Below are positions 756-12,023 of a stretch of DNA of 24,639 nt, piece by piece; the first letter of the stretch is position 1, and each line of letters starts with the position of its first letter. This stretch comes from a virus: IMG/VR virus record IMGVR_UViG_3300030406_005280, positions 1-24,639 of that record. The stretch is one strand, 5' to 3'. The notes beneath the pieces are model-generated. The model saw only the letters and a list, made by a program, of their open reading frames with translations. It was not told the DNA's origin and made no database searches. Made by a program: the position numbers and the translations under genes.

Positions 756-840
756 TGTAGTAGATGTAGTAGATTGTAGTAAAAATAATTAAAAAAAACC
801 TTTAAAAACAACGTCTACTACATTTACTACACTTACTACA
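756..840. repeat. Inverted array of TACTACA iterons
   Basis: On the plus strand, TACTACA occurs at 816, 825 and 834. Its complement TGTAGTA occurs at 756, 765 and 775. Copies within an arm are spaced 9 or 10 bases apart. The two arms are mirror images around a 34-base segment (782-815) that is almost all A and T. Phased iterons flanking an easily melted core are typical of initiator-protein binding at replication origins, but such an array could also be an operator shared by the divergent promoters. Confidence 0.6.
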
Positions 841-906
841 CCTTTTTCAAAAATATTTTTAAAATTATTTTCGTTGTGAAAAAGACTATATAAGTAAATA
901 TAAATG

Positions 907-957
907 TAATTAATTGCAATTAATTGTTTGACTTTTGATATTCTTTCAGAGTAGAAT
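907..957 (+). promoter_or_regulatory. Early rightward promoter with double CAATTAATTG-type operator
   Basis: TTGACT (928-933) and TAGAAT (952-957) are 18 bases apart, giving a start near 964, upstream of the GGAGG at 977-981. Immediately upstream are TAATTAATTG (907-916) and CAATTAATTG (917-926), two copies one helical turn apart. The same perfect palindrome recurs at three other promoters in the window. Confidence 0.65.
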
Positions 958-987
958 GAGGATAGTTAAAAATTATGGAGGATTAAA

Positions 988-1140
988 ATGAATATTTATT
1001 TAACTAAAGAACAACAAAAAGTTTTAAAAGCAATTCTAAAACAAGAGCAAACTGCTCCTACTTCAACATGGCATGTAGATGGTAAAAGAGAATTTAAGCA
1101 TGTTGATATTATTCTAATGAAATTAAATGGAGGTAAATAA
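988..1140 (+). CDS. Small early protein, 50 aa, unknown
   Basis: The ORF runs from ATG 988, six bases after GGAGG (977-981), to TAA 1140, and reads MNIYLTKEQQKVLKAI at its N-terminus. It is Lys-rich with a short predicted helix at residues 6-20 and no recognisable domain. It is the first gene after the early promoter. Its stop overlaps the next start (TAATG), with that gene's GGAGGT inside this one, which supports translation of both. No function can be given. Confidence 0.7.
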   Translation: MNIYLTKEQQKVLKAILKQEQTAPTSTWHVDGKREFKHVDIILMKLNGGK

Positions 1141-1445
1141 TGAAAAAAATAACTAGAACAACAATTAAAAGTTTTATCAAAAAGAATTTTGATGATCTTT
1201 ATATTTCTACAAGAACTAGATTTAATGGGATGATTGATTGTGTTGATGCATGTGCAGATCAATCTTTTCATAAAGTTGAAAGAGATGAAAGAGAAAGATT
1301 TCATGATACTTCATTAGGTATCAAGAATGCTTATTTTGTTGGAAGTAGTAGAGATTATTTTCAACCATATGATCTAGATGGTTTTAAAGGTTATGAGATT
1401 TATAACTGTGTAGGTTCTTTTATCTTGGCAGTTAAGGAGGACTAA
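1140..1445 (+). CDS. Conserved phage/plasmid-type hypothetical protein, 101 aa
   Basis: The protein starts MKKITRTTIKSFIKKNFDDL and contains RFNGMIDCVDAC (27-38), then a YFVGSSRDYF segment and a C-terminal YEIYNCVGSFIL stretch. I recall similar small proteins (KSFIKKN at the start, then F-GM-DCV) in phages and plasmids, annotated only as hypothetical. It is preceded by a strong Shine-Dalgarno and followed with no gap by the next gene, whose AAGGAGG lies at its end. Mixed alpha/beta composition, no membrane segment. Role unknown, probably host takeover or DNA-associated given its early position. Confidence 0.85.
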   Translation: MKKITRTTIKSFIKKNFDDLYISTRTRFNGMIDCVDACADQSFHKVERDERERFHDTSLGIKNAYFVGSSRDYFQPYDLDGFKGYEIYNCVGSFILAVKED

Positions 1446-1823
1446 ATGGACAGTTATAAAGCATTAACAAAACTTTATAATAGATGGTTGTTAAGAACTA
1501 AATACAACCCTCTAATTAGTGCAGAAGATCTCCTCTATGATCATCATAGAGGGGAGATAACTCTAACAAACATTCAAGAAAAATGGATTAGAAAGTTTAT
1601 TAATGTTTGGTGGAAAGCAGAACAACATGAATTTGAGAAGAGTAAAACCGATGAGGAAAAAATTGAAGATTTATGGCATGTCTTTTTTGATACTGACAAA
1701 AGATCTTTCAATGAATATTTTTCTGAAGAATATGGTTTTACTTGTAATGAAGATATTACCTACAAGCAGATGGTAGTTTTGTGTCAGAAATTACTTAATA
1801 CTGAAAATAAACCATGGAGGTAA
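1446..1823 (+). CDS. Hypothetical acidic early protein, 125 aa
   Basis: Starts at ATG 1446 directly after the previous stop, with AAGGAGG at optimal spacing. The sequence is rich in Trp, Glu and Lys (IQEKWIRKFINVWWKAEQHEFE near the middle) and reads as mostly helical and cytoplasmic. No family is recognised. Around codons 29-36 the DNA forms a near-perfect palindrome (listed separately). Its last codons carry the GGAGG that drives the next gene. Confidence 0.8.
   Translation: MDSYKALTKLYNRWLLRTKYNPLISAEDLLYDHHRGEITLTNIQEKWIRKFINVWWKAEQHEFEKSKTDEEKIEDLWHVFFDTDKRSFNEYFSEEYGFTCNEDITYKQMVVLCQKLLNTENKPWR
1529..1557. repeat. Intragenic near-perfect palindrome/hairpin
   Basis: CCTCTATGAT (1532-1541) and ATCATAGAGG (1543-1552) are exact complements with one base between them, and TCT/AGA ends extend the arms imperfectly. 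The element lies inside the coding sequence of the 125-residue gene and encodes L-Y-D-H-H-R. It could form a strong mRNA hairpin or be a binding site. Confidence 0.5.
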
Positions 1824-1825
1824 AA

Positions 1826-2023
1826 ATGATCAATGGTCAATTGGCAATGCTCAAAGATAGTGGAGCAACACTTCAATATGAATGTGAAGAATGTGTAGGA
1901 CATGGAAACATACCAATCAGTTGTGAGGAAGTTGTTACTTGTCCATCATGTGGAGGTAGGGGATGGACAGAAAATTTATCATCTATCCCTCAAGATTTAT
2001 TAATAACAGTTAGGAGTAAATGA
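1826..2023 (+). CDS. DnaJ-type zinc-finger small protein, 65 aa
   Basis: Two CxxCxGxG-like blocks are visible: CEECVGHG (about 19-26) and CPSCGGRG (about 39-46), with a further Cys between them (ISCEE). This is the pattern of the cysteine-rich zinc domain of DnaJ, here as an isolated mini-protein without a J domain. ATG 1826 is chosen over the in-frame ATG 1814 because GGAGG (1816-1820) lies six bases upstream of it. Such domains bind zinc and sometimes unfolded protein or nucleic acid; the partner is unknown. The stop overlaps the next start. Confidence 0.8.
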   Translation: MINGQLAMLKDSGATLQYECEECVGHGNIPISCEEVVTCPSCGGRGWTENLSSIPQDLLITVRSK

Positions 2024-2214
2024 TGGGTTACAGTATTAGAAGAAATGTTTATGTAAACAGACATTTATATGCAGTTGCTTTAGACAGAGTAAAAAAAGCC
2101 TTTGGAAAAAAATATTATGAAAATCCAAATGGAACAGAAAGAGATCCAGATTTAGATGAAGTTTTGTCAATCTTTATTGTTCTGTTTGATGAAAAATATG
2201 GAGGAAGTAAATGA
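2020..2214 (+). CDS. Hypothetical basic protein, 64 aa
   Basis: Begins at one of two adjacent ATGs (2020 or 2023), overlapping the previous stop by four bases, with AGGAG just upstream. The N-terminal half is basic (YSIRRNVYVNRHLYAVALDRVKKAF, in part) and the C-terminal half acidic (DPDLDEVLSIFIVLFDEKYGG). It is probably a small alpha-helical cytoplasmic protein. No family is recognised. It ends with GGAGGAAG, the ribosome site of the next gene. Confidence 0.72.
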   Translation: MMGYSIRRNVYVNRHLYAVALDRVKKAFGKKYYENPNGTERDPDLDEVLSIFIVLFDEKYGGSK

Positions 2215-2411
2215 AAGACGTAAGACCAACGAGTATAGAACTAGCAAAAGCACTAGAAAATTTTGTTTACCATGAACTTGATGTAATTACGGAGAGTGAT
2301 TGGTTTCAAGAAAGAGTTGCGATAGCATTGAAGAAAAACTTTGCAGACGAAGAGATTTTAGAAAAGGCTCAAAAGCTAAGAGATTTTAGAAAAAGAAATA
2401 GGAGTAGGTAA
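2211..2411 (+). CDS. Hypothetical helical protein, 66 aa
   Basis: Overlaps the previous gene by four bases (ATGA) behind GGAGGA. The sequence is strongly helical and charged, with a very basic end (KLRDFRKRNRSR, residues 55-66) that could contact nucleic acid. No family is recognised. It belongs to the string of co-translated early microproteins. Confidence 0.72.
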   Translation: MKDVRPTSIELAKALENFVYHELDVITESDWFQERVAIALKKNFADEEILEKAQKLRDFRKRNRSR

Positions 2412-2678
2412 ATGATGGGAGTTTTAAACATACCATATTTAATTGACGATGCTCATGGTTGGGCAATTGTTACAAGAACGGATATTCGAAAAGCAAGAAT
2501 GCATCCAAACGATTTTCCAAATGCGATCAGAACTAAGAATGAAGAATTGTTTGCACTTGAAGAAGATTGTGAGATGCCAAAGTTACTTAACAAGTTAAAT
2601 GACAATGGAGTTATCTATCAATTGAATGAAAAGTTTATTTCATTTGAAGATAAAGATAACCCTAGAAATTGGCAGTAA
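2412..2678 (+). CDS. Hypothetical protein, 88 aa
   Basis: Starts at ATG 2412 (or 2415) right after the preceding stop, with GGAG upstream. It contains HGWAIVTRTDIRKARM and an acidic middle (ELFALEEDCEMPKLLNKL). No signal peptide, membrane segment or known motif is seen. It is the last gene of the first early cluster and is followed by a 90-base gap with a palindrome and a possible promoter. Confidence 0.75.
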   Translation: MMGVLNIPYLIDDAHGWAIVTRTDIRKARMHPNDFPNAIRTKNEELFALEEDCEMPKLLNKLNDNGVIYQLNEKFISFEDKDNPRNWQ

Positions 2679-2689
2679 AATCCAGGCCT

Positions 2690-2750
2690 TTAACATGTTA
2701 ATTAAATAAAAGTTGCAAAGACTTGTAATAAAATGTTAAAAGATTATATA
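2690..2750 (+). promoter_or_regulatory. Palindrome TTAACATGTTAA and possible promoter
   Basis: A perfect 12-base palindrome occupies 2690-2701, and its half-site ATGTTAA recurs at 2733-2739. A weak promoter, TTGTAA (2723-2728) with TATATA (2745-2750) 16 bases on, would start RNA just before the GGAGG at 2759-2763. The half-site falls between the two boxes, as an operator would. Confidence 0.4.
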
Positions 2751-2768
2751 ACTATTACGGAGGTAAAA

Positions 2769-3020
2769 ATGAGTAGATTAAAAGATTTAGTTATTGATGT
2801 AGAAACTCACTTGGGTTCTTTACTCAATGACGAGGGATTGACGAATGATCAAGCATTGACAGTGATCGAGCAAGAAGAGTTCATGGTCGGTGGTCATAAG
2901 TTTAGTGGCAGATTTGTTCGTCAATGTGCAGAGCAAATCCTTAACGATTGGTCAGTTGAGGATTTATATTACAAACCTTTTCTACAACTTATCGAAGGAG
3001 ATAAAAATGAAAATAGATAA
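2769..3020 (+). CDS. Hypothetical acidic protein, 83 aa
   Basis: ATG 2769 is preferred to the upstream in-frame ATG 2733 because GGAGG (2759-2763) stands at proper distance. The protein reads as a run of helices (DLVIDVETHLGSLLND, QALTVIEQEEF) ending in acidic and Asn-rich residues. A VGGHKFSGRFVRQCAEQIL segment is the most distinctive part. No family is recognised. Its 3' end overlaps the next gene by 14 bases and carries that gene's GGAG. Confidence 0.75.
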   Translation: MSRLKDLVIDVETHLGSLLNDEGLTNDQALTVIEQEEFMVGGHKFSGRFVRQCAEQILNDWSVEDLYYKPFLQLIEGDKNENR

Positions 3021-3525
3021 AATAGAAATGAAGAATATATCCTACTATAAAAGAGGATCAGAAGAAACACCATGCTATAATGCAACTGTATATATCAATG
3101 GCAAGAAAGCAGTTGAGGTTTCAAACGATGGTCATGGTGGTAGTGATAGGCAACATGTATGGCATGAAAATGGTTTTAGACTTCAAGACATTGATAAATG
3201 GTGTGTTGAAAAGTTTGGTCAATCAAGTTGGGAGTATGGTGGGCAAACTTATTCTACTGACATAGACTTGGAGCATTATTGTCATGACGAGTTATACAAA
3301 CATCTTGATACTAAACTTTTGAAGAGGAACATGAAGAAAAATATTATGTTCTTTAGAGATGAGAAAGACATCAAGAGTGGTCAGTATAGTCTTGCAAAAA
3401 TTCAGAATAATTTTGGAGGACTTATGGCATACATAAAAGATAAGTTTCCAAAGTGTATTATTCTTAATGACATGCCATTTGAAAAAGCTTTAGAAACTTT
3501 TAGAAGTTTCGAAAGGGAAATGTAA
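3007..3525 (+). CDS. Hypothetical phage protein, 172 aa
   Basis: Start ATG 3007 lies behind AAGGAG; a longer open frame upstream has no ribosome site and covers the preceding gene. The N-terminal half has beta-rich segments with NATVYINGKKAVEVSNDGHGG (in part) and a patch of His, Trp and Tyr; the C-terminal half is Lys-rich and helical. I recall similar proteins with an 'NGK-a-eVsN-GhGG-' motif in phages as unannotated genes. There is no catalytic signature I can name. Translationally coupled to the next gene by TAATG. Confidence 0.78.
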   Translation: MKIDKIEMKNISYYKRGSEETPCYNATVYINGKKAVEVSNDGHGGSDRQHVWHENGFRLQDIDKWCVEKFGQSSWEYGGQTYSTDIDLEHYCHDELYKHLDTKLLKRNMKKNIMFFRDEKDIKSGQYSLAKIQNNFGGLMAYIKDKFPKCIILNDMPFEKALETFRSFEREM

Positions 3526-3719
3526 TGGATGATAAATGGAGAAATAGAATGCATGATCATCAATTCATAACATTAGACACATCTCTTCCAAATTTATTGG
3601 AAGAGGTGGGTTACAAGATCGATTGGAATGACGATGAAGATAGAAGTAAATATCATGCTTTTAGAAACAGAGTTTACCAATTAATAGATAAATATTACCA
3701 AGGAGGAAATAATGGGTAG
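3525..3719 (+). CDS. Hypothetical acidic protein, 64 aa
   Basis: Starts at the TAATG overlap with the previous gene. The sequence is acidic in the middle (WNDDEDRSKYHAF) and ends QGGNNG, part of which is the AAGGAGG ribosome site for the next gene. Soluble, helical, no recognised family. Confidence 0.7.
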   Translation: MDDKWRNRMHDHQFITLDTSLPNLLEEVGYKIDWNDDEDRSKYHAFRNRVYQLIDKYYQGGNNG

Positions 3720-4104
3720 ATATTATCATGGAGATATTGAGGGCAAGTTTTGGTTTGGAGTTCAATCAAGCACTGATGCCGAGTTCTTTGGAGTAGAGGG
3801 AAATGCAAACTTTCTTCACTACTACTTCGATGAAGACAATAAGAAAGATATTGTCAAAGGCAAACTTGAATGTGAAAGAAAACTAGGAAAGTATAAAAAA
3901 CTTTTAGATGAATTCTTTGATAGTCGTGAGAGTTATAATAATCAAAAACTCCAGGAATTTTTAGATGAAAAAGAACATCCTCATAAACATACTGAGAATG
4001 GAGTTAGATATTATTTAGAGTGGTATGCAAGATTGAATCTTGGGAAAAAGATTTATGATTGTATACTTGAACAAGGATCATGCAGTTTTGAGGCAGAATT
4101 ATGA
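3712..4104 (+). CDS. Conserved phage hypothetical protein, 130 aa
   Basis: Begins MGRYYHGDIEGKFWFGVQSS, an opening I recall from several phage hypothetical proteins. The rest is charged, with probable helices at GKLECERKLGKYKKLLDEFF (in part) and a Tyr/Trp-rich C-terminal segment. No signal sequence or membrane helix. AAGGAGG lies eight bases upstream, and the stop overlaps the following ATG. Function not known. Confidence 0.82.
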   Translation: MGRYYHGDIEGKFWFGVQSSTDAEFFGVEGNANFLHYYFDEDNKKDIVKGKLECERKLGKYKKLLDEFFDSRESYNNQKLQEFLDEKEHPHKHTENGVRYYLEWYARLNLGKKIYDCILEQGSCSFEAEL

Positions 4105-4343
4105 CAACAAGTTACAGTAAAATCAGAGGAAGATCAAAAGGCTATAGATATAGAAATTCTATAGTCGATCTTCAAAGAGATCTTCAAAGAGCAAATGCTA
4201 AAAAAACTCCACAAGAGTTGGAGGAGAATGAAATGTTTGAAGATGATCCTCGTGCTTTAAAAGAAATAGAATATGGTCGAGTGGTAAGAAAACCTACGAC
4301 CATGCTCCATGCCATGAAAAAAGGAGATGTATTTGATGATTAA
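4101..4343 (+). CDS. Hypothetical basic protein, 80 aa
   Basis: Starts in an ATGA overlap behind GAGG. The N-terminus is basic and Tyr/Arg-rich (SKIRGRSKGYRYRNS), followed by a local duplication, LQRDLQRA, caused by a 12-base direct repeat (ATCTTCAAAGAG twice, about 4167-4191), then an acidic stretch. It is likely unstructured or nucleic-acid-binding; no family is recognised. It overlaps the methyltransferase start by eight bases. Confidence 0.7.
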   Translation: MTTSYSKIRGRSKGYRYRNSIVDLQRDLQRANAKKTPQELEENEMFEDDPRALKEIEYGRVVRKPTTMLHAMKKGDVFDD

Positions 4344-5442
4344 TCATCTTGATTTATGTAGTGGTATTGGTGGGTTTGCTCTTGGATTTAAATGGGCAAA
4401 CCTATCCAAACCCATAGCATTTTGTGACTTTGATATTCCATGTCAAAAAGTGTTAGCAAAAAATTTTCCAAACGTACCAATCTTTAATGATGTAAAGGAG
4501 ATAGCAAGTGACCCAAAGAGATTTATTCAACAACCCATCGGAATCCTTAGTGGAGGATATCCATGTCAACCATTCTCCACAAGTGGCAAAAGGCTTGGAT
4601 CGGAAGACCCTAGACACATCTTTCCGTACATCCATGAAATTGTTAAACAAATTAGACCCTCTTATTGTGTTTTCGAAAACGTATATGGGCATGTCTCCAT
4701 GGGACTTGACGAGGTACTCTTTGCAATGGAAGACCTCAACTACCAAACGAGGACATTTATTGTTTCGGCTAGTAGTATCGGAGCAAGACACAAACGAGAC
4801 AGAGTGTGGATCGTCTGTAAAAACTTGGGCGACTCCTACTACCATGGATTATCTACCACCAAGATCGGCAGAGGGAACGAAGAGATTGCAAGAGGGTGCG
4901 AGGAAAGGCAGAAAGAGACCGAGCAATTTAAGAGAACAAGTAGACCCAAAGACAATGGAGATGTATCCAACTCCGACAACCAAGGGATTTGGACATGCAT
5001 CGGAGGGTCAGACAATGATCTTCAGAAAGAAAGTGGAGAGGGGAGAACTGTCAGAAACAGAAGCTCAATCTATGATGAATGGGGTAACTTTAAGACCACC
5101 GAGGATGGAAGAGTGGAAGTTTCCAACTCCGAACAGTGGTCAAGTGAAACATTCATACAATGGCAACAATCAGTATTACGAAAAGCGATTGAAAGATGGG
5201 AGACAGATCGACCTCACAATGAAGATGTATCAGACCGAGGGAGATGCGAGACTAAACTGCGATTGGACAGAGTGGCTAATGGGTTATCCTATTGGATGGA
5301 CGAGCCTAGAGGAATCCCAAGAATCACAACCGAACAACAAAACAGACCACAAAGATTAAAAATGTTGGGGAATGCAATAGTACCCCAACATGCATATCAT
5401 ATAGGACTAGCAATAAAGGAGGACATTAAAAATGAAAGATGA
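4336..5442 (+). CDS. DNA (cytosine-5)-methyltransferase
   Basis: The 368-residue protein transfers a methyl group from S-adenosylmethionine to C5 of cytosine, typically to shield phage DNA from restriction. Motif I is DLCSGIGGF (6-14), motif IV GGYPCQPFS with catalytic Cys77, motif VI the ENV triad at 114-116, motif VIII RHKRDR ending at Arg156, and motif X LGNAIVPQ from Leu344. The segment between VIII and X, about 180 residues, holds the target-recognition region and is unusually polar and G+C-rich. ATG 4336 is chosen because GGAG (4323-4326) is too close to ATG 4327. The same DNA is open in the +1 frame for 852 bases (next entry). The last codons overlap a small gene. Confidence 0.93.
   Translation: MINHLDLCSGIGGFALGFKWANLSKPIAFCDFDIPCQKVLAKNFPNVPIFNDVKEIASDPKRFIQQPIGILSGGYPCQPFSTSGKRLGSEDPRHIFPYIHEIVKQIRPSYCVFENVYGHVSMGLDEVLFAMEDLNYQTRTFIVSASSIGARHKRDRVWIVCKNLGDSYYHGLSTTKIGRGNEEIARGCEERQKETEQFKRTSRPKDNGDVSNSDNQGIWTCIGGSDNDLQKESGEGRTVRNRSSIYDEWGNFKTTEDGRVEVSNSEQWSSETFIQWQQSVLRKAIERWETDRPHNEDVSDRGRCETKLRLDRVANGLSYWMDEPRGIPRITTEQQNRPQRLKMLGNAIVPQHAYHIGLAIKEDIKNER
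4508..5359 (+). CDS. Overprinted ORF nested in the methyltransferase gene, 283 aa
   Basis: This frame is +1 relative to the methyltransferase and lies wholly inside it. It opens with GTG 4508, seven bases after a good Shine-Dalgarno AAAGGAG (4494-4500), and stays open for 283 codons. The product is not random-looking. It has a block with SLQWKTSTTKRGHLLFRLV, three aromatic-x-Thr-Pro repeats (WATPTT at 107, YPTPTT at 153, FPTPNS at 205) and LNCDWTEWLMGYPIGWT at 249. I recall the 'WPTPT' repeats and the 'LNP-WVEWLMGFP-GWT' ending from phage proteins loosely annotated as DNA methylases. It carries no methyltransferase catalytic motif itself. Whether it is expressed is unproven; function unknown, possibly a partner or regulator of the methylase. 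Confidence 0.6.
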   Translation: MTQRDLFNNPSESLVEDIHVNHSPQVAKGLDRKTLDTSFRTSMKLLNKLDPLIVFSKTYMGMSPWDLTRYSLQWKTSTTKRGHLLFRLVVSEQDTNETECGSSVKTWATPTTMDYLPPRSAEGTKRLQEGARKGRKRPSNLREQVDPKTMEMYPTPTTKGFGHASEGQTMIFRKKVERGELSETEAQSMMNGVTLRPPRMEEWKFPTPNSGQVKHSYNGNNQYYEKRLKDGRQIDLTMKMYQTEGDARLNCDWTEWLMGYPIGWTSLEESQESQPNNKTDHKD

Positions 5443-5608
5443 TTTTGATAAGTTCATGGAGAACAACATAGATATCAATCAGTACATTCAATATGACGAG
5501 AGTGGTCATAGAAGATTATATTTTAATAAAAGTAAATTTATTGAAGATGCTTTGGAGTATGTACAAAATGATAATGTAGATTATGAAGTTATAGAGGAGT
5601 GGTTATAA
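5432..5608 (+). CDS. Small acidic protein, 58 aa, unknown
   Basis: ATG 5432 follows an AGGAGG site and overlaps the methyltransferase end by 11 bases. The protein, starting MKDDFDKFMENN, is rich in Asp, Glu, Asn and Tyr and ends IEEWL. The strong negative charge is reminiscent of DNA-mimic inhibitors, but that is only a composition argument. Its stop forms TAATG with the next gene and its GAGGAG serves that gene's ribosome site. Confidence 0.72.
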   Translation: MKDDFDKFMENNIDINQYIQYDESGHRRLYFNKSKFIEDALEYVQNDNVDYEVIEEWL

Positions 5609-5847
5609 TGGCGAAAAAATATGATACTGAATTCATGGATTATAACAATGCAAACACATATTATGTAGAGACGTTTGTAAACATAAAAAGAATTGTAAAA
5701 ATTAAAGGCATAACAGAGAAACAAGCAGTTCTTAGATCTTTGAAAAGAGAACAAGATAGATCTTGGAAAAACTATGAATTTGTTGATTGTGATTACAATG
5801 TGGTTGATTACAATGAATTTAAAAAATTTAAAAAAGGGAGATGTTAA
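5608..5847 (+). CDS. Hypothetical basic protein, 79 aa
   Basis: ATG 5608 is preferred over an in-frame GTG nine bases earlier because of its spacing to GAGGAG and the TAATG coupling. The sequence begins MAKKYDTEFMDYNNANTYYV, has a helical Lys/Arg-rich middle (IKGITEKQAVLRSLKREQDR, residues about 33-52) and a basic end. No recognised domain. It is coupled by TAATG to a zinc-ribbon protein. Confidence 0.75.
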   Translation: MAKKYDTEFMDYNNANTYYVETFVNIKRIVKIKGITEKQAVLRSLKREQDRSWKNYEFVDCDYNVVDYNEFKKFKKGRC

Positions 5848-6020
5848 TGATTTGTGTAATTTGTAAAGGCAAAATAGAAGAGCATAAAAATGCAGAGGGC
5901 ATAGTGTATTGGACAGAGGGACACAATGCTCAACCAATATCAGATGGGAGATGTTGTGATAGATGCAACGAAGATATTGTTATTCCTCACAGAATAGCAG
6001 ACATGATGGTGGCAAAATAA
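5847..6020 (+). CDS. Zinc-ribbon microprotein, 57 aa
   Basis: CVIC (3-6) and CCDRC (36-40) give two Cys knuckles separated by a loop with YWTEGHNAQP. I recall near-identical small proteins (MICVICKGKI-, VYWTEGHNA-P, RCC-KCN) from marine phages, without a known role. The start is a TAATG overlap behind GGGAG. It is the first of three successive zinc-ribbon microproteins. A structural zinc site and protein or nucleic acid binding are likely; function unknown. Confidence 0.82.
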   Translation: MICVICKGKIEEHKNAEGIVYWTEGHNAQPISDGRCCDRCNEDIVIPHRIADMMVAK

Positions 6021-6158
6021 ATGAACACTCCCCAGGAAAAAATTATTATTTGTTTTAGATGTAAAATCAAAATGAATAAAACAGAACTGAAAGACGTTTA
6101 TAAATGTATTGCTTGTGGATTAATAGACGACAGAAAAAATATGGAAGAGAGGAGTTAG
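6021..6158 (+). CDS. Zinc-ribbon microprotein, 45 aa
   Basis: Runs from ATG 6021, directly after the previous stop, to TAG 6158. CFRC (11-14) and CIAC (29-32) form a minimal zinc ribbon; the rest is charged. The ribosome site is weak (GGTGG about eight bases upstream), so translation probably depends on coupling. The 3' end supplies GAGAGGAG to the next gene. Unknown function. Confidence 0.65.
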   Translation: MNTPQEKIIICFRCKIKMNKTELKDVYKCIACGLIDDRKNMEERS

Positions 6159-6160
6159 TT

Positions 6161-6358
6161 TTGGAAGATAAAGAATGGCAAAAAAAATACGGTCATGATT
6201 GGCAAGACGCAACACGCAAGGATGTTAAAACACACTGCACTCCTAGATGTCCTAGATGTCAAGGAACATTACATACAGTAAACGTACATGGACATGAGCA
6301 GTGTGTTCTTTGTCATGCTATTGTTGAGGATTGTTGCCAAGGATCACAATTAAAATGA
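6161..6358 (+). CDS. Zinc-ribbon microprotein, 65 aa, probable TTG start
   Basis: No ATG fits. TTG 6161 stands seven bases after GAGAGGAG and gives MEDKEWQKKYGHDWQDATRK. CPRC (about 30-33) and CVLC (about 48-51) form a zinc ribbon with HTVNVHGHEQ between; an extra CC follows at 58-59. A tandem 9-base DNA repeat, CCTAGATGT (about 6242-6259), encodes PRCPRC. Third of the zinc-ribbon run. Its stop overlaps the next ATG by four bases. Confidence 0.72.
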   Translation: MEDKEWQKKYGHDWQDATRKDVKTHCTPRCPRCQGTLHTVNVHGHEQCVLCHAIVEDCCQGSQLK

Positions 6359-6588
6359 GCAATAATATTATTGACTTTGATTTAATTCGCAAAGCAAAAA
6401 ATCCCGTCAAAAAAGTTTGTGACATAGCATCAAAAGAATTCAAGGAGTTAATAGTCATTGGAGAAGACAAGGATGGCGAGTTAAGAATGATTACAACTTT
6501 AGAAAATTATGCAGACATAGTTTATATCATGGAGATAATTAAATTAGGAATAATAACAAAAGGAGCAGAGGAAAATGAGGAGAAGTAA
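6355..6588 (+). CDS. Hypothetical protein, 77 aa
   Basis: The start is the ATGA overlap at 6355; an upstream TTG would lie inside the zinc-ribbon gene. The sequence has IASKEFKELIVIGEDKDGEL followed by RMITTLENYADIVYIMEIIK, suggesting a small alpha/beta fold. I recall similar 'F-vig-d--gel-m-tt--n-ad' proteins in marine phages as hypotheticals. Ends acidic. Overlaps the next gene by 14 bases, which contain its GAGG ribosome site. Confidence 0.75.
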   Translation: MSNNIIDFDLIRKAKNPVKKVCDIASKEFKELIVIGEDKDGELRMITTLENYADIVYIMEIIKLGIITKGAEENEEK

Positions 6589-6775
6589 ATCTGAGACCTA
6601 CCTACAATATAGTTTAGATTCAGTGATAAGTTATATAAGAGGAGAACTAAACTTAGAAGAGGCAGTAGAAAGACTTGAACAATTGGGACACAAAAAGAAA
6701 AGTGCGATGAAGGTCCTAAAAAACACTGATAGAAACAACATTTTTAGTTTTGAAACAAAAGCTAGAAAAAAATAA
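6575..6775 (+). CDS. Hypothetical basic helical protein, 66 aa
   Basis: ATG 6575 follows GAGG. A predicted helical pair (LQYSLDSVISYIRGELN, LEEAVERLEQLGHKKK) is followed by a basic tail ending KARKK. This is compatible with a small DNA-binding protein, but no family is recognised. Last gene of the early operon; the helicase promoter begins three bases after its stop. Confidence 0.72.
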   Translation: MRRSKSETYLQYSLDSVISYIRGELNLEEAVERLEQLGHKKKSAMKVLKNTDRNNIFSFETKARKK

Positions 6776-6778
6776 TTA

Positions 6779-6806
6779 TTGACAATTAATTGCAAGTATG
6801 CATAAT
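6779..6806 (+). promoter_or_regulatory. Helicase-operon promoter with CAATTAATTG operator
   Basis: TTGACA (6779-6784) is followed after 16 bases by CATAAT (6801-6806), or after 18 by TAATAG. The palindrome CAATTAATTG (6783-6792) overlaps the -35 box. The 17 bases TTGACAATTAATTGCAA here are identical to those at 8944-8960. Confidence 0.75.
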
Positions 6807-6842
6807 AGACGTATAGTTTTATTTTAAAAAATGGAGGACAAA

Positions 6843-7109
6843 ATGAAAACTATGACGATGAAAATGCCTAAATTAGTGAAACCAAAAGGATCAACTTGGG
6901 TAAATGCCCAAAGATATTTGTGTGATTTTTATATACAAAAAGCACCCATATGTGGAGGTCACTTAGTCTTTGCAGTTGTTGGAAGAAAATGGGTAAAGAT
7001 AGCCAAAGGAGACATGTTAAATAAAGGACAAAGATATAAACATTCTAGATTTAAAATTTCCGTTAAAGAATGGCATGGTTGTAATCCAAGAAAAGTAGGA
7101 GTTAGATAA
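6843..7109 (+). CDS. Hypothetical basic protein, 88 aa
   Basis: ATG 6843 is preferred over ATG 6831 because GGAGG (6833-6837) fits it. The N-terminus is MKTMTMKMPKLVKPKGS, then a WVNAQRYLCDF helix and a Gly/Val-rich strand segment (GGHLVFAVVGRKWVKIAKG). The overall charge is strongly positive, consistent with nucleic-acid contact. No family is recognised. First gene after the helicase promoter. Confidence 0.78.
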   Translation: MKTMTMKMPKLVKPKGSTWVNAQRYLCDFYIQKAPICGGHLVFAVVGRKWVKIAKGDMLNKGQRYKHSRFKISVKEWHGCNPRKVGVR

Positions 7110-7307
7110 ATGAAAATACAAGAAATAATTAATAATAAAAATGAACAAATTAAAAAACTAGAACAGATGTTTGAGTGGTTAAAGAACTGCCCTTTTGATT
7201 ATAAAATATCAAGTATGCAAGGAGATAATTTATTTTTAAAAGTAAAACTTTTTGAAAATGAAAAACAAAGATTATCTAAGGAAGATAAAGATGCATTTCA
7301 AATATAA
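7110..7307 (+). CDS. Small coiled-coil protein, 65 aa
   Basis: Starts directly after the previous stop behind GGAG. Residues 1-25 (MKIQEIINNKNEQIKKLEQM...) show heptad-like spacing and probably form a coiled coil; the C-terminus is charged. No domain is recognised. Overlaps the helicase start by 17 bases, so it is probably expressed and co-translated with it. Confidence 0.72.
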   Translation: MKIQEIINNKNEQIKKLEQMFEWLKNCPFDYKISSMQGDNLFLKVKLFENEKQRLSKEDKDAFQI

Positions 7308-8748
7308 AACAAAACCATATCAACATCAAAAGGATGCTTTGGTGCATAGTTTCGATAAACGGAACTATGCATACTTTATGGAGATGGGATGTGGTAAGTC
7401 TAAAGTTCTGCTCGACAACATGGCATGGCTTAGACTCCAAAACAAAATAGATTCTGCAATCATTGTGGCTCCCAAGGGAGTGTACAGAAATTGGGAATTG
7501 ACAGAGATCCCGAAACATTTCTTGGATGAAATAGATTACGAGGTATTTACTTGGAGGGCAAATGCAACCAAGTCGCAGAAAGATAATCTGGTTCGGGCCA
7601 CAAAAGAAAGATCAAAATTTAGAATACTTTTAATTAATGTTGAGGGTTTTGCTACACCAAAAGTAAAAAGATATACTGAAGCTTTTATAAAAAATTCAAA
7701 CTTTTTATTAGCAGTAGATGAATCAACAACAATAAAGAATCATCAAGCCAAAAGAACAAAGGCACTAATTAGTCTTGGTAAACAAGCAAGTTACAAAAGA
7801 ATATTAACGGGATCTCCCGTTACAAGATCGCCAATGGATTTGTTTTCTCAATGTTTATTCATGAGTCAAGATCTTTTGGGGTTTGATTCTTATTGGTCTT
7901 TTCAAGGTCGATATGCCGTGACAAGAAGACAAAAGATGGGTGCTCATTCTTTCAATCAAGTTATTGGATATAGAAACCTGGAAGAACTAGCACAAAGACT
8001 AAAAACATTTTCATTTAGAGTTACGAAAGAAAAAGTTTTAAAAGATGTGCCACCAAAAATATACACAACTAGAGAAGTAACATTGTCTACAGAGCAATTA
8101 CAACACTATCAATCCATGAAGAAACATGCATTGACAGTGGTCAATGATGAGTTGGTAAGTGCAACTGAAGTCATGACACAGTTAATAAAGCTGCAACAGT
8201 TACTTTGTGGTTTCATTGTGACCAATGATGGAAAGACAATAGAAGTTAAGAACAACAGAATAAACTGCATGTTAGATGCGATAGAAGAGATGAGTGGTAA
8301 GGTTATTATTTGGGCAAGGTTCAGACATGACATAATCAATATTACAAATGCTCTTAGAAAAAAATATGGACATGCATCTACTGTAAATTATTTCGGAGAT
8401 ACATCTGAAAAAGACAGACAAGATGCAATCTTAGGAATTGAGAACGATCCTAGTGTAAGGTTTTTTGTTGCTAATCCTCAAACGGGAGGCAGAGGCTTGA
8501 CTCTGATCAAGGCAACAAACGTAATTTATTTTTCTAATGATTTTGATTTAGAAAAAAGAATTCAATCTGAGGATCGTAATCATAGATCGGGTCAGAAGAA
8601 TCAAGTCGTGTATGTAGATTTGATAGCTAAAGGCACGATTGATGAGTATATCGTGAAAGTTTTACAGAATAAAATAGTCTTGGCAGGCAAAGCTTTGAAT
8701 GAAGAAGCAAAGAAATGGTTACAAGTTTCTCCAAAAAAAGACAATTAA
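7291..8748 (+). CDS. SNF2-like superfamily II helicase/ATPase
   Basis: The 485-residue protein has the full SF2/SNF2 motif set: a PYQHQ element (9-13), Walker A MGCGKS (32-37), Walker B as DEST with D143-E144 in place of the usual DEAH, motif III TGSP (173-176), and in the second RecA lobe TGGRGLTLIKA and SEDRNHRSGQ (the QxxRxxRxGQ-type motif VI). Such proteins translocate on duplex DNA and remodel protein-DNA complexes or forks. It lies first among the replication genes and may stand in for a fork helicase. ATG 7291 is chosen for AAGGAAG just upstream. The stop codon sits inside a CAATTAATTG site. Confidence 0.92.
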   Translation: MHFKYKTKPYQHQKDALVHSFDKRNYAYFMEMGCGKSKVLLDNMAWLRLQNKIDSAIIVAPKGVYRNWELTEIPKHFLDEIDYEVFTWRANATKSQKDNLVRATKERSKFRILLINVEGFATPKVKRYTEAFIKNSNFLLAVDESTTIKNHQAKRTKALISLGKQASYKRILTGSPVTRSPMDLFSQCLFMSQDLLGFDSYWSFQGRYAVTRRQKMGAHSFNQVIGYRNLEELAQRLKTFSFRVTKEKVLKDVPPKIYTTREVTLSTEQLQHYQSMKKHALTVVNDELVSATEVMTQLIKLQQLLCGFIVTNDGKTIEVKNNRINCMLDAIEEMSGKVIIWARFRHDIINITNALRKKYGHASTVNYFGDTSEKDRQDAILGIENDPSVRFFVANPQTGGRGLTLIKATNVIYFSNDFDLEKRIQSEDRNHRSGQKNQVVYVDLIAKGTIDEYIVKVLQNKIVLAGKALNEEAKKWLQVSPKKDN

Positions 8749-8782
8749 TTGCTGAAAATTACAACAACATGATATATATAAT
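8742..8782 (+). promoter_or_regulatory. Promoter region of the ribbon-helix-helix gene
   Basis: CAATTAATTG (8742-8751) overlaps the helicase stop codon. A perfect TATAAT (8777-8782) preceded by TATA lies 26 bases further on, but no good -35 box is at the right distance, so this promoter may need an activator or be weak. Placed upstream of the regulator, it allows autoregulation. Confidence 0.5.
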
Positions 8783-8813
8783 AAATACGGGCAACAACAC
8801 ATGGGAGCATGAA

Positions 8814-8954
8814 ATGCAAAAATATAGAACAGTAGCTATTCCGATTGAGATCTGGGAAGATCTTAAAAAAATAGCAGAACAAGAGGGTAGATCGTATGCG
8901 AGACAACTTTCTTGGATGATTAAAAATTATTTTGGCAAAAGTATTGACAATTAA
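8814..8954 (+). CDS. Ribbon-helix-helix DNA-binding protein, 46 aa
   Basis: ATG 8814 follows GGGAG; the longer open frame upstream crosses the promoter and the helicase gene. The protein reads MQKYRTVAIPIEIWEDLKKI and continues with a second helix (SYARQLSWMIKNYFGK). A short N-terminal strand (YRTVAIP), helix, turn with EGRS and second helix match the Arc/MetJ/CopG ribbon-helix-helix fold, which dimerises and inserts the strand pair in the major groove of short palindromes. CAATTAATTG flanks the gene on both sides, and its stop codon lies within one copy. A likely regulator of the phage early and replication promoters; binding is inferred. Confidence 0.8.
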   Translation: MQKYRTVAIPIEIWEDLKKIAEQEGRSYARQLSWMIKNYFGKSIDN

Positions 8955-8971
8955 TTGCAAATAATTATATT
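8944..8971 (+). promoter_or_regulatory. SSB/primase-operon promoter with CAATTAATTG operator
   Basis: TTGACA (8944-8949), 16 bases, TATATT (8966-8971). CAATTAATTG (8948-8957) overlaps the -35 box and the stop codon of the ribbon-helix-helix gene. The first 17 bases are identical to the helicase promoter. Predicted RNA start is near 8978, at the foot of a strong hairpin. Confidence 0.72.
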
Positions 8972-8977
8972 AAAAAT

Positions 8978-9015
8978 ACTAGTCTGGCAGTTTTTCATAG
9001 CTCTGTCAGACTAGT
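8978..9015 (+). promoter_or_regulatory. 5'-terminal hairpin in the leader of the SSB operon
   Basis: ACTAGTCTGGCAG (8978-8990) pairs with CTGTCAGACTAGT (9003-9015) over 13 positions with one G-U, around a 12-base loop TTTTTCATAGCT. No U-run follows on the plus strand, so it is not a normal terminator in that direction. Because it begins where the promoter should start RNA, it may cap the 5' end and protect the message. Confidence 0.6.
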
Positions 9016-9057
9016 CAACAAACCGAAGGGTATAACTTTAACGAAGGAGGTTCAATT

Positions 9058-9615
9058 ATGAACGAGTTATTTGAAACAATGGTTGCAGATGCGAGTGCGT
9101 TTGATGAAATTGACGCAAAAAAGGGGAGTGAATTATCTTCTTTAATTCGTAACAGTCAACAACTTTCAAATCAAATCAAAGAAGCCGAGCAACATCTCAA
9201 AGATCTTAAGGCTATGAGACAAAAGGTTGATACAGAATCTATTCCTGCAATGATGCAAGAAATGGGTATGGACTCTATTACTGTGGATGGTAATAAAGTT
9301 CAGTTAAAACCTTTTGTTCATGCAAGTATACCTCAAGATCGAAAAGGTGAAGCTTATGATTGGTTAAGATCAATAGGCGAAAGTGACATCATCAAGAACG
9401 ATGTTGTCGTGAGTTTTAGCATGGGAGAAGACAATCTTGCTAAAGCTATAGTTGCCGATCTCGAAGAGAAAGGTGTTAATCCAAGTTCAAAGACACACAT
9501 ACATCCAATGACTTTGAAATCTTGGTTATCGGATCGTATCAAAGATGGCAAGGAAGTTGATCTTGAAATGTTTGGTGCATACGTTGGTACAACTGCTACA
9601 TTTAGAAAGGTATAA
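9058..9615 (+). CDS. Coiled-coil replication-region protein, 185 aa
   Basis: Starts at ATG 9058 behind AAGGAGG. Residues about 23-62 form a long charged helix (SSLIRNSQQLSNQIKEAEQH, LKDLKAMRQKVDTESIPAMM) that should be a coiled coil, followed by a beta-rich part (MDSITVDGNKVQLKPFV) and a C-terminal segment ending GAYVGTTATFRKV. The architecture, helical hairpin then a small beta module, resembles phage Gp157-type proteins only loosely. It is the first gene of the SSB/primase transcription unit and only two bases from the SSB-like gene, which suggests a DNA-metabolism role. Unassigned. Confidence 0.82.
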   Translation: MNELFETMVADASAFDEIDAKKGSELSSLIRNSQQLSNQIKEAEQHLKDLKAMRQKVDTESIPAMMQEMGMDSITVDGNKVQLKPFVHASIPQDRKGEAYDWLRSIGESDIIKNDVVVSFSMGEDNLAKAIVADLEEKGVNPSSKTHIHPMTLKSWLSDRIKDGKEVDLEMFGAYVGTTATFRKV

Positions 9616-9617
9616 TC

Positions 9618-10421
9618 ATGAAAGCACAAGTAGTAAATAAGAAAGAGGCAGGTCTACCTGCAAATTTGATAAGTGAAATGGCAACCGATTCTGGCTTGGG
9701 ACTATCCAATGTGACGGCAGATGACATGCAGATTCCTTTTTTAAGGATTCTACAAGCATTGTCTCCACAGTTAGTCAAGACTAATTCAGATTATATAAAA
9801 GGTGCAGAACAAGGAGATATCTTTAATACTGTTACCCATCAAGTATGGAAAGCAGAAGAGGGTATTGTAGTTGTTCCTTGCTATTTTGAGCAAAAATTAC
9901 TTGAGTTCGTTCCAAGATCTCAAGGTGGTGGTTTTGTACAAGAGTTACCAAAAGATCATCCAGATGTTTTAAATGTCAAAAGAGACAAAGAAACTAATAT
10001 GGATATATTACCTAGTGGTAATGAACTTGTAAGAACGGGTCAACATTATGTAAAAGTTCTTAATGATGAACTTGGTATGTTGGAACCTGCCATCGTAGAC
10101 ATGAAGAAAACTCAAATCAGAAGATCAAAGATTTGGGTAACTCAAATGTCAATGCAAACTATAAAGTTAGCAGATGGCACATCAAAACCTGCTCCTATGT
10201 TCGCCAATAAATGGAGACTTAAAACAGTAGCCGATGGCAATGACAAAGGATCTTGGTATTCCTGGCAGATAGAAAAAGTCGGGATGGTAGATTCTCTTGA
10301 CGTTTATAATGAATGTAAAGAGTTTCATAATAGTGTTGCAAGTGGAGAGATCAAAGGAACGGCAGTAGCCGATGAGATTGATGATTCTCCTTCTAAAGAT
10401 ACAGACGAAATACCATTCTAA
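9618..10421 (+). CDS. Single-stranded DNA-binding-like protein with acidic Pro-Phe tail
   Basis: The 267-residue protein has an N-terminal PFLRILQALSPQL segment, a central region with Trp and basic patches (KKTQIRRSKIWVTQMSMQTI) and a disordered acidic end, EIDDSPSKDTDEIPF. The terminal DEIPF closely matches the DDDIPF tip by which bacterial SSB recruits replication proteins; T7 gp2.5 also ends in an acidic tail with terminal Phe. The position just before the primase fits an SSB. The fold itself is not recognised with certainty, so the SSB role rests on tail and context. AAAGG precedes ATG 9618. Confidence 0.72.
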   Translation: MKAQVVNKKEAGLPANLISEMATDSGLGLSNVTADDMQIPFLRILQALSPQLVKTNSDYIKGAEQGDIFNTVTHQVWKAEEGIVVVPCYFEQKLLEFVPRSQGGGFVQELPKDHPDVLNVKRDKETNMDILPSGNELVRTGQHYVKVLNDELGMLEPAIVDMKKTQIRRSKIWVTQMSMQTIKLADGTSKPAPMFANKWRLKTVADGNDKGSWYSWQIEKVGMVDSLDVYNECKEFHNSVASGEIKGTAVADEIDDSPSKDTDEIPF

Positions 10422-10431
10422 CTTTTAACAA

Positions 10432-10488
10432 TTTCGGGTAGAAGTCCTCCTTTTTCATTTTCTTCTACCCGAAAACCATTTGTGAGGA
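10432..10488 (+). promoter_or_regulatory. Hairpin with anti-Shine-Dalgarno loop before the primase gene
   Basis: TTTCGGGTAGAAG (10432-10444) and CTTCTACCCGAAA (10462-10474) are perfect complements over 13 bases. The 17-base loop begins TCCTCCTTTTT, so TCCTC (10445-10449) can pair with GAGGA (10484-10488), the primase ribosome site, to make a pseudoknot. No U-run follows in either direction, so it is a poor terminator. Translational control of primase is inferred. Confidence 0.55.
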
Positions 10489-10493
10489 ATAAA

Positions 10494-12023
10494 ATGAACA
10501 ATGGTCAAAGGTTTATGGATGCTTTTCAAGGTTTTTCTGAGGCTCATGGAGAGACAAAGATCTCTCAAGAAAGAAGACAAGGGAAACAAGCCGCCAATTC
10601 CTATATTAAAAGAACTCCTTTAACATTAGAGTTGATCAATGGTCATCTTGATGGTGGACTTGGTGTTGGCTCCATACCTATTAATGAAGAAAATAAATGC
10701 AAGTTTGGTGCATTAGATATTGATACATATCCTATTGATCATCTTGCCCTAGATAAGAAATTAAGAAAACTTAAGATACCATGCATTGTTTGTAGAAGTA
10801 AAAGTGGTGGAGCACATATCTTTTTCTTTCTAACAGATTGGATGAATGCAGGCGAGTTTAGAGATAAAGCATCAGAGATTGCATCTGTAATAGGTTTTGG
10901 TAACTGCGAGATATTTCCAAAACAAGAACAGATATTAGTAGAACGAGGGGATGTAGGTAACTTTATTAACCTACCCTATCATAACAAAGATCAAACCATG
11001 AGGTATGCCTTTAAAGAAAACGGAGAGGTTGCTACCTTCGAAGAATTTTTAGATTTAGTTGATAAAAGAAAAGTAAAACCAAATTCCTTTTTTAAACTAC
11101 AAGTAGGATCAAAAAAGACAGAACCTTTTCCAGAAGGTCCACCTTGTTTAAATGTCATGGCACTAAATGGCATTGGAGAGGGATCAAGGAACATGTCTTT
11201 ATTTAATTATGGTGCAATGTTTAAGAAGATGGATCCCGATAATTGGAAGGCGCTGCTTGAAAAATTTAACATTGATTACTGTACTAGTCCCGTATCTGCA
11301 CAAGAAATAGTTCAGATACAAGGTCAGTTAGAAAAGAAAGAATATTTTTATACATGTGGACAAGAGCCTATCAAAGCACATTGTAATAAATCTTTATGTA
11401 AAAGAAGAAAGTATGGCATTGGTGTGAATGTAGATGCAGTAGAAATAACAGGTATATCTATTGTTAAATCAGAACCAAGGGTGTTCTTTGCAGATCTGGA
11501 TGGCAGACGATTAGAGTTAACAAGTTTTGATTTACAATCACAATCTAAGTTTCAGATAGCATGTCTGGAACAACAAAATTTTATGCCACCAAAAATAAAA
11601 GAGAGCGATTGGCAGTTGTTAATTAACGGATTATTAGCAGAGGCTAATGAAATAGAAGTCCCAGAAGAACTAACTTACAAAGGACATTTTAATCAATTGC
11701 TTGAGTCTTTTTGTTATGGTCGAGTACAAGCACAATCGGCAGAAGAACTATTGGTTGGTAAACCATGGATCATGGAAGGATTAGTTTATTTTAAGATAGA
11801 TTCTTTCATAGAATTTTTGAGACAAAAAGGATTTACATATTATTCTAAAGGTCAGATTCAAGAAAGAATAAAGGAAATAAATAATGGGGATAAATGTAGT
11901 GATCCAAGATATTTCAAAACAACAGATGGTAAACAAAAGTCAATTCGTGTTTGGTGGGTTCCCGAAGTGAGAGAAGATGTTGAAATACCTAAAGTAGAAT
12001 TTGAAGAGGAGGTTCCGTTCTAA
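10494..12023 (+). CDS. Archaeo-eukaryotic-type (AEP) DNA primase
   Basis: The 509-residue protein has the three AEP active-site motifs: GALDIDTY with D75 and D77, SGGAHIFFF with H108, and EIFPK with E139. These coordinate metal and nucleotide for primer synthesis. Downstream a Cys/His cluster (C288, H296, C297, C302 within a C-x7-HC-x4-C pattern) resembles a metal-binding primase module. The C-terminus is acidic and closes EEEVPF, like the tail of the SSB-like protein upstream. No helicase domain is fused, so the helicase must come from elsewhere. ATG 10494 is chosen because GAGGA is five bases upstream; the in-frame GTG 10482 is inside the ribosome site. Confidence 0.88.
   Translation: MNNGQRFMDAFQGFSEAHGETKISQERRQGKQAANSYIKRTPLTLELINGHLDGGLGVGSIPINEENKCKFGALDIDTYPIDHLALDKKLRKLKIPCIVCRSKSGGAHIFFFLTDWMNAGEFRDKASEIASVIGFGNCEIFPKQEQILVERGDVGNFINLPYHNKDQTMRYAFKENGEVATFEEFLDLVDKRKVKPNSFFKLQVGSKKTEPFPEGPPCLNVMALNGIGEGSRNMSLFNYGAMFKKMDPDNWKALLEKFNIDYCTSPVSAQEIVQIQGQLEKKEYFYTCGQEPIKAHCNKSLCKRRKYGIGVNVDAVEITGISIVKSEPRVFFADLDGRRLELTSFDLQSQSKFQIACLEQQNFMPPKIKESDWQLLINGLLAEANEIEVPEELTYKGHFNQLLESFCYGRVQAQSAEELLVGKPWIMEGLVYFKIDSFIEFLRQKGFTYYSKGQIQERIKEINNGDKCSDPRYFKTTDGKQKSIRVWWVPEVREDVEIPKVEFEEEVPF

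Follow-up and report, generated by a model that had tools for sequence, protein, structure and literature searches.

The window analysed here (the whole stretch of DNA, 24,639 nucleotides, 34% G+C) comes from a marine phage. It carries a terminase gene and an early operon that diverge from each other, followed by replication genes, and a short repeated element lies before several of these. The relevant features are:

885 to 890, minus strand: candidate -10 (TATAGT) of a leftward (terminase/late) promoter, a presumed function, within the conserved CTATATAAGTA
904 to 929, plus strand: S1, three boxes at 10-bp steps (ATGTAA 904-909, TTGCAA 914-919, TTGTTT 924-929) with TTAA linkers, in the divergent region between the terminase small subunit gene (minus strand) and the early operon (plus strand)
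928 to 957, plus strand: early promoter, TTGACT - 18 - TAGAAT, its -35 overlapping the third box of S1
2690 to 2701, no strand assigned: another palindrome, TTAACATGTTAA, which starts 23 bp before the start of S2
2713 to 2728, plus strand: S2, TTGCAA-AGAC-TTGTAA, ahead of a gene that starts at 2733 or 2769 and ends at 3020
6780 to 6795, plus strand: S3, TGACAA-TTAA-TTGCAA, over a -35 (6779-6784) and spacer; -10 CATAAT at 6801-6806
8739 to 8754, plus strand: S4, AGACAA-TTAA-TTGCTG, upstream of the ribbon-helix-helix (RHH) gene and overlapping the helicase stop
8814 to 8954, plus strand: CopG/Arc-like RHH protein of 46 residues, the proposed regulator
8945 to 8960, plus strand: S5, TGACAA-TTAA-TTGCAA, over a -35 (8944-8949) and the RHH stop codon; -10 TATATT at 8966-8971
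8965 to 8970: weak third box of S5
9058 to 9615, plus strand: Pam3 gp33-like gene (DUF7307), the first gene behind S5
9618 to 10421, plus strand: Pam3 gp34-like gene, followed by the primase gene ending at 12023

An earlier sequence-only reading described the genes after 8948 as 'SSB/primase'. The primase is borne out by a TOTE-type primase domain, but the first two genes are gp33-like and gp34-like and no SSB family is listed for them. No relatives were found for the protein at 6843. The nearest named polymerases among the matches listed are those of phage 023Pt_psg01 and Pelagibacter phage HTVC023P (about 50% identity). Two contigs from metagenome-assembled genomes that carry gp34 relatives are labelled Maricaulis and SAR202; these are probably phage contigs binned there. 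As to a temperate way of life, the search covered the integrase domain PF00589; it gave no match in 12 records, which may all be incomplete.

The same reading proposed a regulon of four promoters marked by the palindrome CAATTAATTG. Exact copies do occur at 917-926, 6783-6792, 8742-8751 and 8948-8957, and nowhere else in the window or in the rest of the 26,050-base record (exact search). Four copies compare with 0.14 expected, and none of 100 shuffles of the window reaches this number. The further copy at 907-916, matching at nine of ten bases, is confirmed, yet the window total of copies with up to one mismatch is unremarkable (7, a number reached in 8 of 100 shuffles, versus 3.31 expected). 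The 17 bases TTGACAATTAATTGCAA are indeed common to 6779-6795 and 8944-8960. Two sites, not three as had been claimed, overlap an upstream gene at its end: 8742 (helicase stop) and 8948 (RHH stop). For the site at 6783 the preceding gene ends 8 bases earlier, at 6775, and the site at 917 lies between divergent genes.

The palindrome recurs, but the element itself is larger. The description that suits it best is of two 6-base boxes, TTGCAA-like and with centres 10 bp apart, on either side of a variable 4-base linker: (TTG/TGA)CAA-N4-TTG(YAA). CAATTAATTG corresponds to the commonest linker, TTAA, with the two inner half-boxes, and is thus part of this larger unit. The plain palindrome was rejected as the unit since linkers vary between sites while the boxes persist: in the window and its relatives we find TTAA, AGAC, TTAT, TTAG, TTAC, TAAA, TTTA, TTTT, GTAA, CTTA, CAAA and CTAA. 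With this description the multi-promoter regulon is well supported, but it comprises five promoters rather than four, the fifth carrying the non-identical site at 2713-2728 (S2), whose linkers in relatives are TTAA, TAAA, TTAT and TTAG.

A de novo count of 3-base dyads places CAA-N4-TTG joint top, in 5 of the 12 intergenic stretches of the window (1.4 expected); ATA-N2-TAT gives identical numbers. Pairs of TTGCAA-like boxes at 10 bp, counted over the whole window with one mismatch allowed per box, show no excess (2 versus a mean of 2.5 at other spacings), and we rejected this statistic. A requirement of at least 11 matching bases out of 12 leaves a single pair at 10 bp, S2, and spacings of 7-9 and 11-15 bp yield no pair. 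A first weight matrix, trained on these same window sites together with related sites, gives 7 matches in the window at a score of at least 11 (0.95 in simulated sequences) and 15 at a score of at least 6 (16.2 in simulated sequences). A CtrA site (TTAA-N7-TTAA) was considered and rejected: S1 has a spacing one base short (TTAA-N6-TTAA), and none of the others matches. Rfam returned two matches, both far below cut-off.

A motif search of the full record and its relatives, suggested with the original reading, shows that matches are concentrated outside genes in related contigs. For this search the matrix weights were derived from the window sites only. Since the relatives had helped in recognising the boxes in the first place, these contigs provide an independent test of the matrix weights but not of the form of the matrix. 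In 14 related contigs (14.5% noncoding) there are 39 matches with a score of at least 11 outside predicted genes and 6 wholly inside. For 300 column-permuted matrices the means are 2.3 outside and 6.3 inside, and none reaches 39 outside. At a score of at least 10, a weaker control, 20 matches lie inside and 41 outside genes (permuted means 12.6 and 3.9; 1 of 300 permutations reaches 41). The pattern CAANNNNTTGYAA occurs 27 times forward and 25 times in reverse in 12 records; for the reversed pattern the counts are 5 and 1. In the relative L160 the top dyad is CAAT-N2-ATTG, in 5 of 11 intergenic stretches (0.35 expected); in 10 distant contigs, the five top-ranking dyads per contig include no other one present in more than two intergenic stretches. 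The dyad count, CAANNNNTTGYAA and the permutation control all point to symmetric half-sites spaced by about one helical turn and joined by a short linker. The matrix peaks at offsets 0 and +10 exist by construction because those sites were chosen with the matrix.

At S5 the boxes overlap the end of the RHH gene. In the window and all eight of the clade A loci examined they are read in frame 2 with a TAA stop, whereas the five clade B loci examined all use frame 0 and a TGA stop. Their persistence despite the different frames of the two clades indicates that selection acts on the DNA. Counterparts of S3 are found in L011 (6417) and L087 (9438). At S4 the left half is kept in the window, L005 and L006 only, and the right half in nearly all aligned clade A loci. 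Next to S1, CTATATAAGTA adjoins the boxes in 12 of the 13 sequences searched, window included (in two cases as variants). TTAACATGTTAA precedes a set of box sites, with start-to-start distances of 23 bp or about 29-37 bp.

The sites were also said to lie at -35 boxes. This applies to S1, S3 and S5, where the boxes overlie a promoter element; the scan of 800-10500 lists no promoter match at S4 (8742), nor at S2. Within 800-10500 the two highest-scoring promoter matches are those at S3 and S5 (11/12 each), whose boxes cover the -35 and much of the 16-bp spacer of these consensus-like promoters. The S1 boxes abut and overlap the -35 of a 10/12 match, the third best on the plus strand, with two minus-strand matches scoring equally.

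The sites might simply be strong -35 elements in an AT-rich context, repeated since good promoters look alike, with no regulator involved. TTGACA is present in two of the five sites, and the base composition of the window is in keeping with such an explanation. However, the right-hand TTGCAA box sits in the promoter spacer, a region in which sigma-70 is not known to require a particular sequence, and there is no TTGACA in the boxes of S1 and S2. L025 and L031 have one base inserted between TTGA and CAA and yet keep CAA-N4-TTGCAA. Together with the column-permutation control, this makes an explanation from promoters only highly improbable.

A second alternative is that the sites are operators for a transcription factor of the host, used by the phage or imposed on it. 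In favour, the promoters of the phage appear to be of a sigma-70-like type. Against this, 9 of the 14 IMG/VR stretches with an exact TTGACAATTAATTGCAA belong to this phage clade and carry it in the same place (none of eight window proteins was found in the other five, as far as the fetched stretches extend). In addition, 114 more distant phage loci, in which the RHH protein has diverged, have fewer motif matches than expected (3 versus 18). We consider a host reader unlikely.

Among phage proteins, the 46-residue RHH protein is the regulator that fits best by fold, position and conservation, as a candidate. Its matches to Pfam RHH_5 (21.8 bits, cut-off 26) and Arc (15.1 bits, E 0.02, cut-off 20.4) are below threshold, the best PHROG match is 'Arc-like repressor' (E 1.2e-4), AvtR, an archaeal-virus regulator of the same group as SvtR and F55, matches weakly (E 0.045) and NCBIfam profiles give no match. 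The AlphaFold monomer model (pLDDT 78.4) has helices at 11-23 and 28-39 and no strand; Foldseek against the PDB ranks CopG and Arc best, with probabilities up to 0.99 and E values of 0.11 or worse. For named phages, one search for relatives returned three hits with an E value of 3 and another none. The stretch before the gp33-like gene is held by 23 near sequences, of which 22 have the RHH gene and 21 a site scoring at least 11. L021, the only one without the gene, also lacks the site, while L022 has the gene (74% identical) and no site of at least 11 in its 14.3 kb. That distant relatives with a diverged RHH protein show neither this motif nor a substitute dyad also speaks against the RHH protein as reader. 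A shared ancestral regulator other than the RHH protein would give much the same distribution.

The reader could instead be another phage protein, for instance the Zn/HTH sigma-70-region-4-like protein (13815-14162) or a small basic early protein. The former has a credible DNA-binding domain (Sigma70_r4, E 1e-7; TIGR02937 below cut-off), and a 66-residue basic protein (6575-6775) is conserved in both clades. Among 22 tabulated loci, however, the HTH gene occurs only in L086 (93%) and, weakly, L085 (30%). It was not found in L011, L015, L087, L089 and L092, which all have its neighbour g14155 and the sites; these contigs are incomplete and may have had a copy elsewhere. Another phage reader seems quite improbable.

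CopG, the copy-number repressor of plasmid pMV158/pLS1, has 45 residues (PMC4803016) and an operator of two half-sites with a 5-bp narrowed linker; short linkers with a narrowed minor groove reportedly separate the half-sites of Arc, CopG and omega (PMC3325190). Cooperative binding of RHH dimers to multiple operators and occlusion of promoters have been reported (PMC5569661). The protein described here resembles CopG in size (46 residues), has it as best fold match and would likewise act on paired half-sites with a short linker. CopG also autoregulates, which the protein here may do at most weakly. CopG serves one plasmid promoter, whereas the candidate operators here lie at five promoters of a phage genome and have TTGCAA boxes. 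The Arc repressor of phage P22 has 53 residues (PMC4803016). It is a small phage RHH repressor, as the protein here is proposed to be, and is the best PHROG match and among the top fold matches. Arc has one operator between divergent promoters, in contrast to the set of sites on several operons here, and the sequence match is weak. SvtR and F55 of archaeal viruses act on several viral promoters, including their own, through tandem or inverted repeats, by occlusion and spreading along DNA (PMC5569661). They are similar to the proposed regulator in being virus-encoded RHH proteins with several viral promoters and differ in their archaeal promoters and site sequences. In Cluster A mycobacteriophages one repressor uses many dispersed sites (stoperators), which are asymmetric and also terminate elongation (PMC9283540). 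The sites of the present phage lie at promoters or ahead of genes. Cluster A repressors, moreover, are not known to be RHH proteins.

We favour the RHH protein as reader: the sites are probably operators of one phage-encoded regulon, at which it would cover the -35 regions and repress. One RHH dimer would occupy each box of the core, two adjacent dimers touching across a linker that is mostly A/T-rich, with a third dimer at S1 and perhaps also at S5. We infer that binding would lead to repression rather than activation: with the -35 and much of the spacer taken up by boxes at S3 and S5, a bound protein would keep RNA polymerase off. The degraded S4, in the protein's own promoter region, suggests at most weak autoregulation. 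As the protein accumulates, the early and replication operons would be turned down together. It might further act through S1 as an early-to-late switch, repressing early transcription and setting the late promoter that points leftward, in which boxes make up the -35 region, and it might work jointly with a second putative regulator on TTAACATGTTAA, but this extension is doubtful.

The proposed system is a new example of an already known kind of switch. As we see it, few regulatory circuits of uncultured marine phages have been worked out. Here a candidate operator, its likely 46-residue repressor and five or six promoters may be read from sequence in the window and its best-covered relatives (L160 and L087), and TTAACATGTTAA suggests that the promoter code is denser than the annotation shows.

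All four exact copies of the 10-base palindrome CAATTAATTG placed in the window by the sequence-only reading were recovered where it had put them, against 0.14 expected from dinucleotide-preserving shuffles, and the full-record search for which it called found no extra copy anywhere in the 26,050-base virus record containing the window. With one mismatch allowed, the seven copies in the window are at chance level. The shared sites of the proposed four-promoter set stand; their number does not. There are five (S1 to S5), and S2 was overlooked because its linker is AGAC. A 16-column matrix trained on these sites and related ones finds seven places in the window scoring at least 12.7, all within the five sites; the next best scores 9.6.

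S1, 904-929, flanked by the early operon on one side and the gene for the small terminase subunit on the other; matrix matches start at 904 and 914
S2, 2713-2728; match starts at 2713
S3, 6780-6795; match starts at 6780
S4, 8739-8754; match starts at 8739
S5, 8945-8960, before the gp33-like gene; matches start at 8945 and 8955

The repeated unit was defined by aligning the sequence that precedes the gp33-like gene in 22 loci and the window. Related contigs were taken from IMG/VR with the gp34-like protein, the SNF2-type helicase and an early protein as queries, among the matches listed (up to 80 per query). TTGACAA-NNN-ATTGCAA is exact in 16 of these 23 stretches; L025 and L031 have one base inserted between TTGA and CAA, L016, L018 and L020 carry TTGACAAGTAATTACTA, and L021 and L022 have neither pattern. 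As judged from the alignment, the common core is (TTG/TGA)CAA-N4-TTG(YAA), that is, a pair of TTGCAA-like boxes 10 bp apart. The L011 ortholog of S2 reads TTGCAA-TTAA-TTGTAA. S4 is the weakest of the five: its left half encodes the helicase end and is conserved in no sequence but the window, L005 and L006, and its right half, TTGCTG, is kept in the clade A rows except L021 and L022. In an offset profile of 32 matrix-chosen sites (peaks at 0 and +10 by construction) the box-consensus mean outside the core is highest at +20, with 2.7 standard deviations, but +23 (2.4) and -1 (2.3) follow closely, so that a third box as a general feature is only hinted at. Longer inverted repeats enclose box pairs shortly before a start codon, for example ACCCATTGCAA-TTTA-TTGCAATGGGT (L160 5565, L166 2161, L087 1011, L164 4895).

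Enrichment in relatives was measured with weights from the five window sites only, in a matrix form chosen after the relatives had been inspected. At score 11 the motif search proposed by the sequence-only reading gave, in 14 related contigs (189,180 bases, of which a crude ORF call leaves 14.5% noncoding; L086, nearly identical, excluded), 39 matches not wholly inside predicted genes and 6 inside, orthologous copies included. In the same contigs 300 symmetric column permutations averaged 2.3 outside and 6.3 inside; the maximum outside was 37, none reaching 39. At score 12, unmerged, there were 39 matches against 7.1 expected from simulated sequences, and 3 against 18.0 expected in 114 more distant loci (1.41 Mb, part overlapping). 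The 64 sites scoring at least 10.5 in 18 sequences form 16 context clusters; seven of these consist of one site only, and among those some look like chance matches. A model-free dyad count ranks CAA-N4-TTG and ATA-N2-TAT equal first in the window (CAA-N4-TTG in 5 of 12 intergenic stretches, 1.4 expected); in L160 the leading dyad is CAAT-N2-ATTG (5 of 11, 0.35 expected). The motif is missing from the top six dyads of L087, and of the five dyads listed for each of 10 distant contigs, none occurs in more than two stretches. Across 12 records, the window's own included, CAANNNNTTGYAA has 27 forward and 25 reverse matches against 5 and 1 for the reversed pattern; one of the window matches, at 14130, falls inside a gene. 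No integrase of family PF00589 was found in 12 incomplete records.

The 17-mer TTGACAATTAATTGCAA is indeed common to 6779-6795 and 8944-8960. It occurs exactly in 14 IMG/VR stretches, nine from this clade at the junction of the ribbon-helix-helix (RHH) and gp33-like genes and five unrelated within the part fetched. Reading frames at S5 were compared in loci with TGACAA at that position. In clade A (window and 8 of 8 loci examined) the box starts on the third base of a codon, and ID(N/K)-TAA, the end of the RHH gene, falls within the site; in clade B (5 of 5) the frame is another and the RHH stop is the TGA of TTGACA. The S5 DNA is retained while reading frame and protein end differ, which points to selection at the level of the DNA. 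The gp33-like leader contains a variable hairpin (8978-9015), then a small stem around GAAG (9022-9031, ACC-GAAG-GGT) immediately ahead of the ribosome-binding site; at this position more distant relatives form stems of other sequence that also pair (for example ATCCC/GGGAT in L149, ACCC/GGGT in L121, ATACC/GGTAT in L113). The leader is possibly a translational control site; Rfam gave no match above cut-off in the window.

A second, 12-base palindrome, TTAACATGTTAA, was found 65 times, in 10 of 12 records, one of which is that of the window and two of which, G001 and G011, share nearly identical stretches; the reversed control had no match. Its single window copy (2690-2701) lies at S2; it is numerous, and partly grouped 15-60 bp apart, in L160, L163, L093, L095, L166, L161, L087 and L086. 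In eight sequences, 33 of 43 copies lie outside predicted ORFs of at least 50 codons. By a loose pattern on one strand, a box-like site starts 23-37 bp downstream of 14 of the 43 and 45-68 bp downstream of 6, and for the other 23 the next 80 bp contain no such site. This palindrome suggests a second regulator.

The proposed regulator of the box pairs is the 46-residue RHH protein (8814-8954, plus strand). It matches PHROG Arc-like repressors (E 1.2e-4), and Pfam RHH_5 below cut-off. Its structure model (pLDDT 78.4, from a 30-sequence alignment) has CopG and Arc as best PDB matches, with probability up to 0.99 and E-values alone not significant. Among 23 near sequences that reach 260 bases or more upstream of the gp33-like gene (six other near loci were too short), that stretch holds the RHH gene in 22 and a site scoring at least 11 in 21. 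L021 lacks both, which counts for the link between protein and site; L022 has the gene without the site, which counts against it. A different open frame occupies the expected RHH position in L021 (1-551). The RHH strand is KY(R/K)TVAIP in 13 clade A and B rows of the alignment and mostly KYKSVAV-like in the 17 distant rows, which come from genomes without the box pair; this correlation tracks phylogeny and is no independent proof. The main rival as reader of the sites, an HTH protein at 13815, was not found in those relatives that carry sites and also have the gene next to it. This protein (13815-14165) combines a cluster of cysteines with an HTH like that of sigma-70 region 4, and 2 of the 22 related loci tabulated were found to have it.

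Among the publications listed, which include 8 of 23 that contain the letters CAATTAATTG, none was found to describe these sites. For RHH proteins, PMC5569661 and PMC3325190 describe cooperative binding, occlusion of promoters, and half-sites separated by a short linker that is narrowed, which fit expectation for these sites. Two of the four CAATTAATTG sites overlap an upstream stop codon, not three as claimed. A plain promoter scan of 800-10500 listed 40 matches against 39.4 expected, of which the top two are at S3 and S5 (11/12 each); the match at S1 (10/12) shares its value with two minus-strand matches. No match is listed for S2 or S4. To the left of S1, CTATATAAGTA is a candidate -10 for a leftward promoter; 12 of the 13 sequences searched have it, two of them in variant form. 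An inverted repeat, AAGTGTAGTAGATGTAGTAGA, adjoins this divergent control region (753-834; 21-nt arms, 95% complementary, 40 nt between, TAGTAG repeats), and the early operon includes a C-5 cytosine DNA methylase gene (4327-5442; Pfam PF00145) with relatives in many loci. The boxes at S3 and S5 cover the -35 box together with the greater part of the spacer, and dimers bound there are therefore predicted to exclude RNA polymerase.
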